A program made the position numbers and the translations under genes. Under the pieces are notes generated by a model. The model had not been told where the DNA came from. It did no database searches and saw nothing but the letters and a program-made list of their open reading frames with translations. 21,846 bases of DNA from IMG/VR virus record IMGVR_UViG_3300019776_000866, positions 1 through 21,846 of that record. One strand, written 5' to 3'. This document shows positions 2,662 through 10,347 of this stretch, one piece after another; the first letter of the stretch is position 1; the number at the start of each line of letters is the position of its first letter. The stretch comes from a virus.

Positions 2662-2702
2662 AAATATTGACGATGCGCCGTATTCCGGACATGGTTCTGG
2701 AA
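2640..2702. promoter_or_regulatory. AT-rich divergent intergenic patch, possible promoters
   Basis: Between the minus-strand operon and the plus-strand lipoprotein gene lies a short AT-rich patch (about 2654-2669, TATTCATAAATATTGA) in an otherwise GC-rich sequence. It is the only plausible promoter area for both directions. No convincing sigma-70 pair with correct spacing can be assigned, so this is a weak call based on position and composition. Confidence 0.25.
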
Positions 2703-3356
2703 ATGAAACTCCTCCTGATTCTTCCTCTGGCCGTTCATCTCGTGAGCTGCGCAGCACCGCAGCAGAAGCCATCCGTTGCCGCGGCTCCTGCGGTGCCGGC
2801 TGGATTCGTTAAAACTGCCGATGGCACGCTCTACGCGGCCGACTCGGTGCCGAAGGGTGCCCAGCTGGCCACGGTGCAGGCGGAAGCCCCGGCCACGACC
2901 CCTGCCCCGGCATCGACCGGCGGCCGCAAGAAGTTCTGGACGCCCGAGCGCCGTCAGTCCCTGATGCTCGGCCTGATGGCAGCGTCGAGCGTGGCGAGTT
3001 CCTACTACAGTGCCCAGGCAGCGTCCTACAGCGCGCAGGCGGCGTCCTACAGCGCACTGGCCGCATCCAACACGGGGAGATACAACACCTACGGCTACTC
3101 GGCCTACAAGCCCATCAGCCCGTATTCCTCGGGCTTCGGTGGATTCAATCCCTACATGGATGACACCATCCGCCTGCGGCATTCCTTCGGTGACCGGTGG
3201 AAGGACCAGTCCGGCAACAGCTACAAGATCAGGCAGGATCCGTTCGGCACGTCGATCAATGGCGACGTCTACAGGATCACAGCCGACGATGGCAGGGCGT
3301 ACAAGGCAACGCCCACCTTCAGGGAAGGCCAATACAAGCTGACGCCCATGTGGTGA
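2703..3356 (+). CDS. predicted lipoprotein with heptad repeat, unknown function (217 aa)
   Basis: I chose the ATG at 2703 because it begins exactly at a type II signal peptide: K2, a hydrophobic core, and the lipobox LVSC with C16. In-frame starts at 2667 (TTG), 2673 and 2691 would add a charged leader. The mature part has an Ala/Pro-rich linker (24-75), a hydrophobic segment (87-100), three copies of YSAQAAS-like heptads (102-122), a Gly/Tyr/Ser-rich region (124-152), and a small C-terminal domain (153-217) rich in charged and aromatic residues. It is expected on the inner face of the outer membrane or in the inner membrane. Phage lipoproteins of this kind may act in superinfection exclusion or lysogenic conversion, but nothing here proves that. 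Confidence 0.75.
   Translation: MKLLLILPLAVHLVSCAAPQQKPSVAAAPAVPAGFVKTADGTLYAADSVPKGAQLATVQAEAPATTPAPASTGGRKKFWTPERRQSLMLGLMAASSVASSYYSAQAASYSAQAASYSALAASNTGRYNTYGYSAYKPISPYSSGFGGFNPYMDDTIRLRHSFGDRWKDQSGNSYKIRQDPFGTSINGDVYRITADDGRAYKATPTFREGQYKLTPMW
3006..3068 (+). repeat. three tandem 21-bp repeats in lipoprotein gene
   Basis: Three consecutive 21-bp units at 3006, 3027 and 3048 encode YSAQAAS, YSAQAAS and YSALAAS. The units differ mainly at third codon positions, so selection appears to act on the peptide rather than this being a fresh duplication. Confidence 0.85.
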
Positions 3357-3476: not shown

Positions 3477-4028
3477 ATGCCGATAAAACCCCTCTTCTGC
3501 CTCCAATATGCGAACGCGACGCTCACGAAGGCTTCGTGGTATTACTGGCTCGGGTGCCTCCTGATGTTCCACGTGCTGCCCGACATGATATCCGACATCC
3601 CAAAGGCCCAGCTGATGGCGGCCTGGTCCCCGTGGCGAACCTCCGTCGTCATCGCGGTTCTTTGGCTCCTCCTGAACCGCAGCGCCATAGTCGGCAACAT
3701 GGTGTATCCGAAGGCCGGAGAGGAGGAGTGGACTGAGGAGCAGATTACCCAGCCGTTTGGGTGCAGCTACAGCCTGTTTGTGCCGATCATCATGGCAGGT
3801 GCCATCGCTCTGATTGTGCCGCACCCAGTACCTCCCGCCCTGCACGGCACCGCATGGAGAATGATCGCCGCCTTTGTGGTCTACACCACGGTCTTCGAAT
3901 ATTTCGTCATGATCCGCATTCGGAACCGTCTGATCGAAGCAATTCAGGCCGAGCAACGGATGCTCCGAAACCAGATGTGGTACCAGCAAACTCCCGACGA
4001 CGTGGAGTATCCCGACGACGTGGAGTAA
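3477..4028 (+). CDS. four-helix integral membrane protein, unknown (183 aa)
   Basis: Four hydrophobic segments are clear: residues 21-37, 54-73, 98-116 and 127-147. They are followed by a charged, probably cytoplasmic C-terminal tail that ends in a duplicated PDDVEY element. The ATG at 3477 has only a weak AGGG about 10 nt upstream. At 183 aa with four spans it is larger than common holins, and no holin or transporter signature is seen. It is on the same strand as the lipoprotein, 120 nt downstream, and between two minus-strand genes. That position fits an accessory membrane module, for example exclusion of superinfecting phage, but this is inference only. Confidence 0.7.
   Translation: MPIKPLFCLQYANATLTKASWYYWLGCLLMFHVLPDMISDIPKAQLMAAWSPWRTSVVIAVLWLLLNRSAIVGNMVYPKAGEEEWTEEQITQPFGCSYSLFVPIIMAGAIALIVPHPVPPALHGTAWRMIAAFVVYTTVFEYFVMIRIRNRLIEAIQAEQRMLRNQMWYQQTPDDVEYPDDVE
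3993..4028 (+). repeat. 18-bp tandem duplication forming the gene's end
   Basis: Two 18-bp units, 3993-4010 and 4011-4028, differ only in the last base: the first ends TAT (Tyr) and the second TAA (stop). The duplication defines the last residues of the membrane protein. Confidence 0.85.
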
Positions 4029-4430: not shown

Positions 4431-4492
4431 ACGACTACATAAAACCACAAGATAATTCTTGCAAGTCGTTTGTTGTCGTTTTATGTCGTCGT
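4431..4492. promoter_or_regulatory. symmetrical divergent operator/promoter between two RHH genes
   Basis: CGACTACATAAAAC (4432-4445) and GTTTTATGTCGTCG (4478-4491) are inverted repeats matching at 13 of 14 positions. They are centred on the palindrome CTTGCAAG (4458-4465), so the whole 60-bp region is one dyad with axis at 4461.5. The central TTGCAA can be read as a -35-like element in both directions. Weak -10-like TATGTC (4482-4487, rightward) and TATGTA (complement of 4436-4441, leftward) each lie 17 bp away. GTCGT also recurs at 4465, 4475 and 4485, exactly 10 bp apart. The symmetry is seen; the promoter reading is inference. Confidence 0.7.
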
Positions 4493-5384: not shown

Positions 5385-5750
5385 ATGCCAGCCCGCCGCA
5401 CAGGCAGACCGGCAAAGCCGGTGTACAGCCCAGAGGAGGTCGCCGACCTCTGTGAGCTGCCTGTCGCCATCGTGCTGCGCCATCTGCGCGCACCGGGCCG
5501 TTCTTTTTTTCCAGGCGCATGGGAGGAGTCAGACGGTCACTGGCGGGTCCCTGAAGATGGCGTGCGCGCCTTCATGGGCCGCCGCATCGAGCGCCACTAC
5601 AGCCTCCAGAGCGTCGCCGAGCTGCTGGAACTCTCCTACGACCACGTCTGGCGCACCGTGAAGGCCCAGCGACTCGCGGTGGAGGTCGCCGGCACGCAGC
5701 GGGTCCCCGAGTCCGCGATCCTCAAACTCATCTCCCGGAAGTTCGCATGA
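5385..5750 (+). CDS. tandem helix-turn-helix DNA-binding protein (121 aa)
   Basis: The start at 5385 follows AGGAGG (5369-5374) by ten bases. Two HTH units of the excisionase/MerR-like kind (helix_turn_helix_17 style) stand in tandem. The first is residues 14-65, with YSPEEVADLCELPVAIVLRHL and a wing ending in RVPEDGVRAFM. The second is residues 72-117, with YSLQSVAELLELSYDHVWRTV and a wing ending in RVPESAILKLI. Each repeat has the sequence order helix, turn, recognition helix, beta wing with a conserved RVP[ED]. Internal duplication is therefore likely. It may be a regulator or a small terminase-like DNA recogniser; the early position favours regulation. Confidence 0.7.
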   Translation: MPARRTGRPAKPVYSPEEVADLCELPVAIVLRHLRAPGRSFFPGAWEESDGHWRVPEDGVRAFMGRRIERHYSLQSVAELLELSYDHVWRTVKAQRLAVEVAGTQRVPESAILKLISRKFA

Positions 5751-7032: not shown

Positions 7033-7622
7033 ACACCCTCAATCTCCTAGCCATCGACCTCGAGACCGGAGGCCTCGACCCGACGGTCCACCCCATCCTG
7101 TCGATTTCCGCCGTCCCCGGGTGGGATGCCAAACCGTTCCACCAGCTCGTGCTCCCTAAGGAGGGGGACTGTCTCAACCCGGAGGCCGTCGCAGTGAACG
7201 GATACGATCGGAACGCTTGGGTCCAGCTCGGCGCGATCCCGATCGAGGAGGCCCTCGAGCGCTTCCGCCTCTGGCTGCTCGAGCGGCCTGCCGATGTCCC
7301 GGTGGCGGTGCCGCTGGCGCACAATGCCGCCTTCGACTCAGCCTTCCTGCTCCGCTACGGAGCCGTCAAGATCCCCGCCCTCAGCAGCCGCTGGGAATGC
7401 AGCAGGGCCGCCCTGCTGGTCGCCCAGCGCGCCGGGTTGGTCCGCAGGGGTGGAAGTAGCCTCGATCACCTGGCTTCGCTGGCAGGCCTCCCTGCGCGCG
7501 GCGCAGTGCACTACGGTCCCGAGGACGCCCGGCTCTGCCTCGACGGCTACCGCTGGCTCCTCCGTAAATTCCGCCCCTCCCTGCTGCGCCGCGTGGCCGC
7601 AGCCATCCTGCCTATCCGATGA
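7029..7622 (+). CDS. DEDDh 3'-5' exonuclease (DnaQ-like)
   Basis: All three exonuclease motifs of the DEDDh/RNase T/DnaQ superfamily are present. Exo I has AIDLETGG with D10 and E12. Exo II has HNAAFDSAFL with D103. Exo III has HYGPEDARL with H161 and D166. These residues bind two metal ions and hydrolyse DNA or RNA from the 3' end. At 197 aa it is a bare exonuclease domain without a polymerase. The start at 7029 forms an ATGA overlap with the previous stop. Its position before the replication protein and helicase suggests proofreading or end-processing during phage replication. Other family members act on RNA, so the substrate is uncertain. Confidence 0.85.
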   Translation: MNTLNLLAIDLETGGLDPTVHPILSISAVPGWDAKPFHQLVLPKEGDCLNPEAVAVNGYDRNAWVQLGAIPIEEALERFRLWLLERPADVPVAVPLAHNAAFDSAFLLRYGAVKIPALSSRWECSRAALLVAQRAGLVRRGGSSLDHLASLAGLPARGAVHYGPEDARLCLDGYRWLLRKFRPSLLRRVAAAILPIR

Positions 7623-8617
7623 GCAACGCCATCCTCACCAGAGCATACCAGAGCACAGTGACGAGCCCGACCGACATGGCAGTGCTGGCCTCCCTCGCCG
7701 ATCAGGCGAACGATGACGGGATCTGCTGGCCATCGGTGGGCAGCCTGAGCCGCCGCACCCGGCTGGGAGAGAGGACGGTCCAGATGTCCCTGCGGCGCCT
7801 CGCCGCCGCCCGCCACATCAGCACCACCGGCTACGTGGCAGGTGGTGCCCCCCGGCAGACTCCCACCTACGTGGTGCATCCGGTTGTTCCTGCCATAGCG
7901 ACGGGTGCAGGAGATGCACCCGTGCAGCACATGCACCCCTCTACGGGTGCACCAGATGCACCCGTGCAGCAGCTGCACCCCTCTACGGGTGCAGGAGATG
8001 CACCCCACGGGTGCACCAGCTGCACCCCACGGGTGCAGGAGCTGCACCCCACGGGTGCAGGAGCTGCACCCGAACCCTCATTGAACCATAAAGAACCCTC
8101 AGAGAACCCTCATGCGGGCACGTGCGCGGACGCGAGCGCCCGCGCACACGCACGCGAGGGAACCTCTGTTCTTCTGGACGTCGATCGTTTGCCAAAAAAA
8201 TCGAAGGGGGGCGCGGGCGCGCCGACGGTCGAGTGGGACGGCGCTGGCTTCCGGGTGCCACCGCTGGTGCTGGCTGAGTGGCGTATGGCCTTTCCCGCCC
8301 TCGACGTGTCCGGTGCCATCCGGGCCGCGGCCGCATGGGTGACCGACAATCCCAGCCGCGCTGGCAAGAAGCAGTGGGCGCGCTTCCTCCTCAACTGGCT
8401 CAAGCGCACCCGGCCCGGCGAGTCTCCGCCGCCGTCAGACGACGCGGATCCGCTGCCGCCGATGGTGACGGGACCTGACGACGGCCCGCCTGGATGGCAG
8501 GCGGCATACGAATCGATGTACGACCACGCCCCGACAGTGCCGTGGTCGAGGCAGATTGCGGACGTCCAGCTCGAATGCCGTCAGTGGCTCAAGAAATCGG
8601 AGAGGGGGGCCGCATGA
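7619..8617 (+). CDS. HTH replication initiator-like protein containing an iteron array (332 aa)
   Basis: The N-terminus (about 18-75) is the winged-helix type (HTH_36-like) found in phage replication initiators: MAVLASLADQANDDG, then WPSVGSLSRRTRLGERTV, then a second helix and a wing. Residues 95-185 are a low-complexity linker rich in Gly, Ala, Pro, Thr and His, encoded by the iteron array at 7903-8071 and the phased repeat after it. The C-terminal domain (about 205-330, with WRMAFPALDVSGAIRAAAAW and FLLNWLKR) resembles helicase-loading C-terminal parts of phage replisome organisers. It lies directly upstream of the DnaB-like helicase with an ATGA overlap. This parallels lambda O, whose gene also holds the origin. 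The role is inferred from domain and context. Confidence 0.8.
   Translation: MSNAILTRAYQSTVTSPTDMAVLASLADQANDDGICWPSVGSLSRRTRLGERTVQMSLRRLAAARHISTTGYVAGGAPRQTPTYVVHPVVPAIATGAGDAPVQHMHPSTGAPDAPVQQLHPSTGAGDAPHGCTSCTPRVQELHPTGAGAAPEPSLNHKEPSENPHAGTCADASARAHAREGTSVLLDVDRLPKKSKGGAGAPTVEWDGAGFRVPPLVLAEWRMAFPALDVSGAIRAAAAWVTDNPSRAGKKQWARFLLNWLKRTRPGESPPPSDDADPLPPMVTGPDDGPPGWQAAYESMYDHAPTVPWSRQIADVQLECRQWLKKSERGAA
7903..8071 (+). repeat. iteron array, candidate replication origin
   Basis: Six 19-bp units of GGGTGCA-N5-TGCACCC start at 7903, 7945, 7987, 8009, 8031 and 8053. Two degenerate units with CCGTGCA as the left half start at 7920 and 7962. In total there are fourteen exact copies of the 7-mer (either orientation) in 169 bp. 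The N5 spacers are only ggaga, ccaga, ccagc or ggagc. The last four full units are 22 bp apart, close to two helical turns, and 22 is not a multiple of three, so the units pass through all three reading frames. The DNA, not the peptide, is therefore what is conserved, as expected for initiator-binding iterons. Confidence 0.85.
8072..8112 (+). repeat. helically phased GAACCCTCA repeats next to iterons
   Basis: GAACCCTCA occurs at 8072, 8093 and 8104, with a variant GAACCATAA at 8083. The four copies are spaced 11, 10 and 11 bp, about one helical turn each, so all face the same side of the DNA. They begin immediately after the last iteron and are less GC-rich than their surroundings. They may be a second protein-binding array or part of the DNA-unwinding element. 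Confidence 0.7.
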
Positions 8618-10347
8618 ACGGGATCAGCGATGCGATGCAGGGTGAGCAGGCCGTGCTGGGTGCGATGCTGCACTCCCCTGACATTGCGCTTCCGGTGGCG
8701 ATTGACCTCCTGACGGCGACGGACTTCGGGTTCCCTCTTCACCAGAAGGCGTTCGAACTGATGCGGACGATGGCGAACGCGGGGCAGCCTGTGGACGCGA
8801 CCACATTGGCGATCAGGATGATGGATGCGCAGCTGCTGGAGGGCCGCGAAGTCGGAGTGGTCACTGATTGGCAGTCGGCCTGCCCCAACCCCGGGAATGT
8901 CAGGGAGTACGCGCGCCTTGTCCGTGGGAAGGCGCGACGGCGGGAGTTTCTCGGCCTGCTCGATGATGCCATCCGCAAAATCGGCGAAGGCGCGGAGACG
9001 GAGGAGGAATTCCGGGCCGTCATGGAGGGCGTGATGGCTGGATCGGAGCGGCTGCAGGCGACAGTGATGCACACCCATCGAGGACTGCGGAGTGGTGGCG
9101 ATGCGCTCGCGGAGGTGGCGACGGCCATGGCGGAGCGATTCCGGCACCGCGGTCAGCCCCTCGGGTTGGCGGTCGGCCTCGCCGACGTCGACCGGGTGGT
9201 CAACGGGTTCCAGAAGCAGGATCTTGTCATCATCGGCGCACGCCCGGCGATGGGGAAAACGAGCCTGGGGGCCGGCATCGCAGAGGGTATTGCCCTGGAC
9301 GCAGCCAACCGACGCAACATCCCCGTCCTGATGGTGACTCTGGAGATGAGCGATGCGCAGATCATGGAGCGCATGATCCTCGGCCGGTGTGAGATCAAGT
9401 ACTCGAAGGCCCGCACTGGAATGTTCAGCGATTGCGAGGGTGCGATCTGGGCAGCGGCACAGGAAGCCCTGTCCGCCCGGGCCGGAAAATCGGGGCAGGA
9501 CATCAAGATGGAAATCTTCGACCTTGCCGTCGAGAAGCTCCAGGCAAAATGGGAGCGCAAGGGCCGGATGGTCCCGGATGCCGCCAATCCGGTGACCAAC
9601 ACCGAGGTCAAGGAAAGCGGTGAGCAGATCCAGATGATGGCCGAGAAGCTCGCCGCCGTTGCCACCGGAATGCTGACGTTCTATGACAGCTACGGAGCGA
9701 CGACGCAGGAACTGAGGACGGTGATTGGTCAATGGGTCCGGAAAATCGGATGGACGGCAGATGCCGGAGACCTGTGCCCACCGGTAGTGATCATCGATTA
9801 CATCCAGCTCATCAAGCCGAGCGAGAAGGCGAACCAGCGGGAGAAACGGATGGCGATCGAGGAGGCCTGCGCAGTACTGAAGGGACTGGCCAAGAGGCAC
9901 AACATCGTCATCGTCGGCCTCGCCCAGGTGGGGCGATCGGCCGCGGACAACCCGGGCCAGAAGCCTGCGATGAAAGACTTCAAGGAATCCGGCGCGATCG
10001 AGGAGTACGCCGACGTCCTCATGTCTCTGCACCGCGACCCGTACTACAAAAAATGGGAGAAGCTGGGGGACGAGGCAAAGGAGGCGTGGGAGAAGCGCGC
10101 CGGATTCCGGAATCGAGAGCCAGCGCATGAGCAGCTCGGCGAGCCGGAGTGGGACGGCCAGTCCTACTACGAGGCCCAGGCCACGCTGGAGATCCTCAAG
10201 GGGCGGAATGTGCCGACCGTCGAGATCCCCATCCTGTTCCACGGGAAGCACATGAGGTTCAGCTCACTCACCCCTGCACTCTACTCCAACAATCCCGACA
10301 AACGGCAGAAGCCGCAACAAACCGAAGAACAAAACCTCGACTTCTAA
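8614..10347 (+). CDS. dnaB-like: replicative DNA helicase, DnaB family
   Basis: A RecA-fold hexameric helicase that unwinds DNA 5' to 3' at the fork. The N-terminal helical domain (about 1-110, starting near EQAVLGAMLHSPD) is typical of DnaB. Walker A is GARPAMGKTS (208-217), the Walker B/H2 segment is DYIQLI (395-400), and the DnaB motifs QVGRSAA, KDFKESGAIEEYADVLM and HRDPYY follow. At 577 aa it is about 100 residues longer than usual. Much of the excess lies between Walker A and B (about 425-480 nt beyond the motif, roughly residues 275-355), where a Lys/Glu/Ala-rich insertion occurs. The start overlaps the upstream stop (ATGA) and has GGAGAGGGGG before it. Partner of the replication protein upstream. 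Confidence 0.95.
   Translation: MNGISDAMQGEQAVLGAMLHSPDIALPVAIDLLTATDFGFPLHQKAFELMRTMANAGQPVDATTLAIRMMDAQLLEGREVGVVTDWQSACPNPGNVREYARLVRGKARRREFLGLLDDAIRKIGEGAETEEEFRAVMEGVMAGSERLQATVMHTHRGLRSGGDALAEVATAMAERFRHRGQPLGLAVGLADVDRVVNGFQKQDLVIIGARPAMGKTSLGAGIAEGIALDAANRRNIPVLMVTLEMSDAQIMERMILGRCEIKYSKARTGMFSDCEGAIWAAAQEALSARAGKSGQDIKMEIFDLAVEKLQAKWERKGRMVPDAANPVTNTEVKESGEQIQMMAEKLAAVATGMLTFYDSYGATTQELRTVIGQWVRKIGWTADAGDLCPPVVIIDYIQLIKPSEKANQREKRMAIEEACAVLKGLAKRHNIVIVGLAQVGRSAADNPGQKPAMKDFKESGAIEEYADVLMSLHRDPYYKKWEKLGDEAKEAWEKRAGFRNREPAHEQLGEPEWDGQSYYEAQATLEILKGRNVPTVEIPILFHGKHMRFSSLTPALYSNNPDKRQKPQQTEEQNLDF

Follow-up and report, generated by a model that had tools for sequence, protein, structure and literature searches.

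A conserved 62-bp inverted repeat as a probable shared control region of two divergent, putative ribbon-helix-helix genes in an uncultured phage lineage

The divergent genes P0001 and P0002 of a 21.8-kb IMG/VR virus record, a genome fragment that was analysed over its whole length (the window), lie 77 bp apart, and most of this gap, 62 bp (4431-4492), is taken up by one inverted repeat. From the features of this sequence we propose that the dyad is the shared operator/promoter region of two divergent operons headed by probable ribbon-helix-helix (RHH) genes, with at least one of the RHH proteins binding the arms, a reading to which we assign a probability of about 0.58. It is very probable that the dyad is a control site for both flanking genes, and the system as a whole, which is genuine, conserved and in all probability regulatory, consists of ordinary parts in a somewhat unusual combination. 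If true, a lambda-like early-control site would here be run by an RHH pair on one symmetric site, which would replace the usual helix-turn-helix (HTH) repressor and Cro, and a compact regulatory element with a defined 20-bp motif would be available from a phage lineage represented here solely by uncultured records.

The dyad is built from two abutting 31-bp arms, the left arm (4431-4461) reading CAAGAATTATCTTGTGGTTTTATGTAGTCGT on the minus strand and the right arm (4462-4492) reading CAAGTCGTTTGTTGTCGTTTTATGTCGTCGT on the plus strand, with 24 of 31 positions paired (77% complementary) around an axis at 4461.5, as the first-pass annotation of this DNA had proposed. The same annotation had described a 14-bp inverted repeat with one mismatch and a central sequence, and both are borne out: the outer 14 bp match at 13 of 14 positions (ACGACTACATAAAA / TTTTATGTCGTCGT), and the central palindrome CTTGCAAG is present at 4458-4465, contains the hexamer TTGCAA and is kept in a related phage. 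Among the 21,785 possible even-centred dyads with 31-bp arms in the window, this one ranks first. None of 2000 simulations (160 bp, local composition) reached 24 pairs (mean best 14.1, maximum 20), and simulations of the whole window gave a top score of 22, compared with 24 for the observed dyad, confirming that the dyad is genuine and far above chance. The sole comparable dyad of the window (23/31, centre 7962.5) lies within an iteron-like array.

The related phage, G002, is an uncultured phage of 41.4 kb that was reached via P0002 and is present in two IMG/VR contigs (one of them a shorter copy), so that the conservation described here refers to a single pair of phages, the window phage and one distinct relative. 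G002 carries the same divergent gene pair: P0003 shares 59% identity with P0001, and P0004 shares 94% with P0002. Its dyad is identical to that of the window at 59 of 62 bases. Four-fold degenerate sites are identical at 10 of 20 positions in P0001 and at 20 of 38 in P0002 when compared with the G002 homologues, i.e., at about half of the silent sites, and the non-coding gap is therefore more constrained than the adjacent silent sites. A third phage, L039, which was reached through DnaB, stops short of the dyad region. When the dyad was searched as a 27-base exact pattern, there were no viral matches, and a strict symmetric dyad pattern matched only the two contigs of G002. A relaxed pattern (ACATAA-16-TTGCAA-16-TTATGT) gave, beyond this phage pair, only chance-like matches in AT-richer DNA among viral and genome contigs.

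Each arm holds one exact copy of a 20-bp element, TTGTNGTTTTATGTNGTCGT (right copy at 4473-4492, plus strand; left copy at 4431-4450, minus strand), and no further exact copy exists in the window; G002, too, has just the corresponding two in its 41.4 kb. The right arm displays three GTNGT repeats with a spacing of 10 bp (4465-4489, with starts at 4465, 4475 and 4485; plus strand), and the left arm two (4448-4444 and 4438-4434; minus strand). The 10-bp-spaced triple occurs a single time in each of the two sequences, and the right arm matches itself at lag 10 in 14 of 21 positions, a value equalled in 19 out of 5000 shuffles. The dyads of the window and of G002 differ by three substitutions, two at the free N of GTNGT and one in the inner, repeat-free portion of the left arm, a distribution that is in keeping with the repeat reading, was noticed post hoc and is suggestive only. 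The usual binding mode of RHH proteins involves tandem sites occupied by adjacent dimers, and GTNGT at 10-bp spacing is, by analogy, a candidate for a layout of the kind that RHH dimers bind. AmrZ, e.g., forms a dimer of dimers on DNA (PMC3325190).

P0001 (4494-4694, plus strand) encodes a putative RHH protein of 66 aa and is the first gene of the rightward operon, in the position of Cro, and P0002 (4135-4416, minus strand) encodes a putative RHH protein of 93 aa in the position of the repressor. P0001 matched the Pfam family RHH_1 with 13.4 bits, below the cut-off of 20.5 (E = 0.079 against the library, E = 0.0027 in the search within this genome), and a comparison with curated RHH profiles gave no RHH family match for P0002, P0003 and P0004. 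P0001 and P0002 are related to each other: their two-sequence profiles aligned over 46 ungapped columns with an hhalign score of 22.8, whereas column shuffles of this alignment reached a mean of 9.4 and a maximum of 17.6 (0 of 300 as good), and by this comparison the two proteins have one domain in common. In RHH proteins, an N-terminal strand precedes two helices, one about 14 and the other about 16 residues long. In low-confidence models, helices are predicted at residues 14-27 and 31-46 of P0001 and 18-31 and 35-52 of P0002, and the N-terminus is non-helical, so the modelled helix positions of both proteins would fit the RHH arrangement. The AlphaFold models were poor (pLDDT 56 and 67) and yielded no significant structural match; weak structural hits to TacA2 and Arc, both RHH proteins, were set aside as evidence, the comparison being uninformative. 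In the profile alignment, the predicted DNA-reading residues are T7-T9-R11 in P0001 and V11-S13-R15 in P0002. The predicted strand is invariant between P0002 and P0004, and at position 7 of P0001, a predicted DNA contact, the window has T and the relative M, with the operator unchanged. Neither protein matched an HTH family in Pfam, and the sole HTH hint, a similarity of P0002 to BldC, was not significant (E = 0.07). Searches for homologues of P0001 and P0002 in annotated phages returned nothing usable, P0002 had no match among plasmids, and the alignment of P0002 with P0004 found no relative in genome contigs. Taken from sequence and models, both are probably RHH proteins, P0001 more securely than P0002, for which we infer the fold. 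The earlier description of two different RHH proteins diverging from the dyad is therefore accurate for the divergence, and its RHH label is reasonable and only partly verifiable.

Rightward of P0001, we found small genes, a gene for an HTH_17/excisionase-like protein (5385-5750, plus strand; Pfam HTH_17, E = 3.8e-7; weak PHROG excisionase/regulator match), an exonuclease-like gene assigned by inspection, a gene for an O-like replication initiation protein (7619-8617, plus strand; PHROG replication initiation, E = 4e-19) with an internal iteron-like array of tandem repeats (7901-8071), a gene for a DnaB-like helicase (8614-10347, plus strand; Pfam DnaB_C, E = 1e-49), and then terminase, portal and SU10-type capsid genes. 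This order (divergent pair, HTH, exonuclease, O-like, DnaB) parallels that of the lambdoid phage P22 (c2 on the minus strand, cro on the plus strand, c1, the O-like gene 18 and the DnaB-like gene 12), and the pair therefore occupies the immunity position. However, c2 and Cro are HTH proteins, whereas both proteins here are probable RHH proteins, and the window phage has a single operator region, with no second copy in the 21.8 kb of the window or the 41.4 kb of G002. The resemblance to a CI/Cro switch, as noted in the first-pass annotation, thus extends to the immunity position with O-like and DnaB genes downstream but not to an HTH repressor and Cro. No integrase was found in the window, which is a fragment. 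G002 encodes a 447-aa protein (L008 6282-7625) with a weak C-terminal similarity to phage integrases (phrog_1, E = 1e-3); motifs resembling those of tyrosine recombinases were seen in it by eye, and a search with Pfam integrase families gave no match. Judged from these sequences, the phage lineage may be temperate. The leftward operon of G002 also includes an HTH_31 protein (L008 11103-11630), a possible classical repressor; we recognised nothing equivalent to it in the fragmentary window.

With regard to mechanism, P0002 (most likely, being highly conserved) would bind the 10-bp-spaced GTNGT repeats in each arm as adjacent RHH dimers, and the bound dimers would cover the DNA just upstream of both genes, repressing both directions together. 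Given the close similarity of the arms, binding of a single protein should influence either side, and affinity could be graded by the additional repeat of the right arm. P0001 probably reads identical or overlapping repeats, because its predicted reading strand is similar to that of P0002. By its position, the dyad would then be the point of early control in a lambda-like genome and would govern the leftward operon as well as the HTH-exonuclease-O-DnaB operon on the right; the DNA binding of the two proteins and the direction of regulation are what we infer here. Autoregulation by a single repressor is a possible, tentative alternative, in which a single protein (P0002 is the probable one) occupies the dyad and turns off the early operons on both sides, while the other acts elsewhere. 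One protein would suffice for a symmetric site, and the near-identity of P0002 to its homologue, with its invariant predicted strand, compared with the lower value for P0001, would suit such a role; yet there is no further copy of the element in either sequence and the proteins are related, which makes a common site the simpler explanation and argues for the shared operator.

A bistable switch of the CI/Cro type would be a special case of the shared operator, in which the two RHH proteins compete for one operator, each favouring its own promoter, and the binding of polymerase is mutually exclusive. The position of the gene pair is equivalent to that of c2/cro, the predicted reading strands of P0001 and P0002 are similar, and the arms differ in carrying three (right) and two (left) GTNGT repeats, which could give direction-specific affinity, but we regard this case as doubtful, since with near-equal arms one bound protein is expected to repress both sides, the promoters are not above chance, and the window has no sign of lysogeny. 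We likewise consider it unlikely that the region, in the immunity position of lambda, acts as a switch for lysis/lysogeny or for early genes, with the two RHH proteins competing for the 62-bp operator and the back-to-back promoters being mutually exclusive. P22 also has two related RHH genes in divergent orientation; there, the intervening sequence contains separate operators for Mnt and Arc, and the target of the pair is ant, which belongs to the late region. The genes of this immI region, mnt (37994-38245, minus strand) and arc (38336-38497, plus strand), are separated by 90 bp, compared with 77 bp here (the mnt/arc region is described in PMC8022706 and PMC2629481); the window phage differs in that a single dyad occupies most of the intergenic sequence and that the pair stands at the head of the early replication operon. 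Unlike P22, with ant beside mnt/arc, no antirepressor gene was recognised in the rightward operon. P0001 and P0002 had no significant sequence match to Arc and Mnt: the Mnt alignments were in the expected register (FSARIP/FNFRMP and MTLRL/FNFRM) with an arginine at the same place, 12 and 49 of 100 shuffles being as good (not significant), and the Arc alignment was out of register over the strand. A dyad scan of the P22 gap covered even centres only, misses the odd-centred Mnt operator and was left out of the evidence.

The symmetry could also reflect a bidirectional promoter, i.e., symmetric sites for RNA polymerase with no protein operator and with the RHH genes incidental. The hexamer TTGCAA (4459-4464) is palindromic and a candidate -35 on both strands, and it is followed at an equal spacing of 17 bp by TATGT on either strand, an arrangement kept in the relative, giving a weak candidate promoter TTGCAA-17-TATGTC towards the plus-strand gene (4459-4487; the top plus-strand pair in the gap, below chance expectation) and a weak candidate TTGCAA-17-TATGTA towards the minus-strand gene (4436-4464; second on its strand, not above chance). 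Both have 7 of 12 consensus bases and a score of 4.77, compared with a mean best of 6.1 in random sequence, under a simple sigma-70 scheme with textbook consensus frequencies (the promoter type of the host may differ), and a consensus scan for sigma-70 promoters found none. These pairs are the best promoter candidates by their symmetric spacing and conservation, not by strength, and the shared TTGCAA -35 claimed earlier is thus present and palindromic as a hexamer, without strong back-to-back promoters on it. An alternative -10, GATAAT (4451-4456), was given less weight, having no good -35 and an altered core in the relative (GATATT). Symmetric bidirectional promoters, which are DNA able to bind polymerase both ways, are common in bacteria (PMC12825309), but those of E. 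coli share the -10 and have starts about 10-23 bp apart (PMC12825309), whereas here only the weak -35-like hexamer would be shared and the inferred starts would lie about 65 bp apart; in addition, the scores are not above chance and the symmetry continues past the hexamers, which renders this reading improbable. In the Pc/Pr region of pLS20, overlapping divergent promoters are under an autoregulator (PMC4207663), but there one regulator, RcoLS20, uses two operators and DNA looping, with no second divergent repressor. The earlier remark that no switch of this exact geometry is described is thus to be qualified by P22 mnt/arc (90 bp), the switches of PMC4207663 and the promoters of PMC12825309, and in the open-access literature covered, which was incomplete, we found no description of a system that combines two RHH proteins with a single dyad filling the gap in the immunity position.

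The ATG of P0001 begins one base after the end of the dyad. Leaderless translation of P0001 is not established by the absence of a Shine-Dalgarno sequence, because in either phage the majority of genes, those for capsid and portal among them, are without a clear one, and the missing ribosome site of P0001 thus says little. The pattern hints that the host makes little use of Shine-Dalgarno sequences.

An origin or partition site (iteron or centromere) bound by an RHH or Rep protein is very improbable and was rejected as a function of the dyad. In its favour, the short tandem repeats lie in both orientations, and centromere binding is known for some RHH proteins. However, we saw no ParA-type gene adjoining the dyad, and the O-like gene contains a better origin candidate, an iteron-like array that has counterparts at the corresponding place in related phages. 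Such arrays, with a period of about 22, lie at 7901-8071 within the O-like gene of the window and immediately before the DnaB gene in each of two related phages (L008 15958-16080; L039 1940-2085), in a corresponding place and with different sequences; by analogy with lambda O, they are probably origins of replication. On the other side of the dyad, a lipoprotein-like and a membrane-protein-like gene (2667-3356 and 3477-4028, both plus strand) are convergent to P0002, and nothing similar was seen at the matching place in the relative; together, they look like an inserted cargo (moron) unit.
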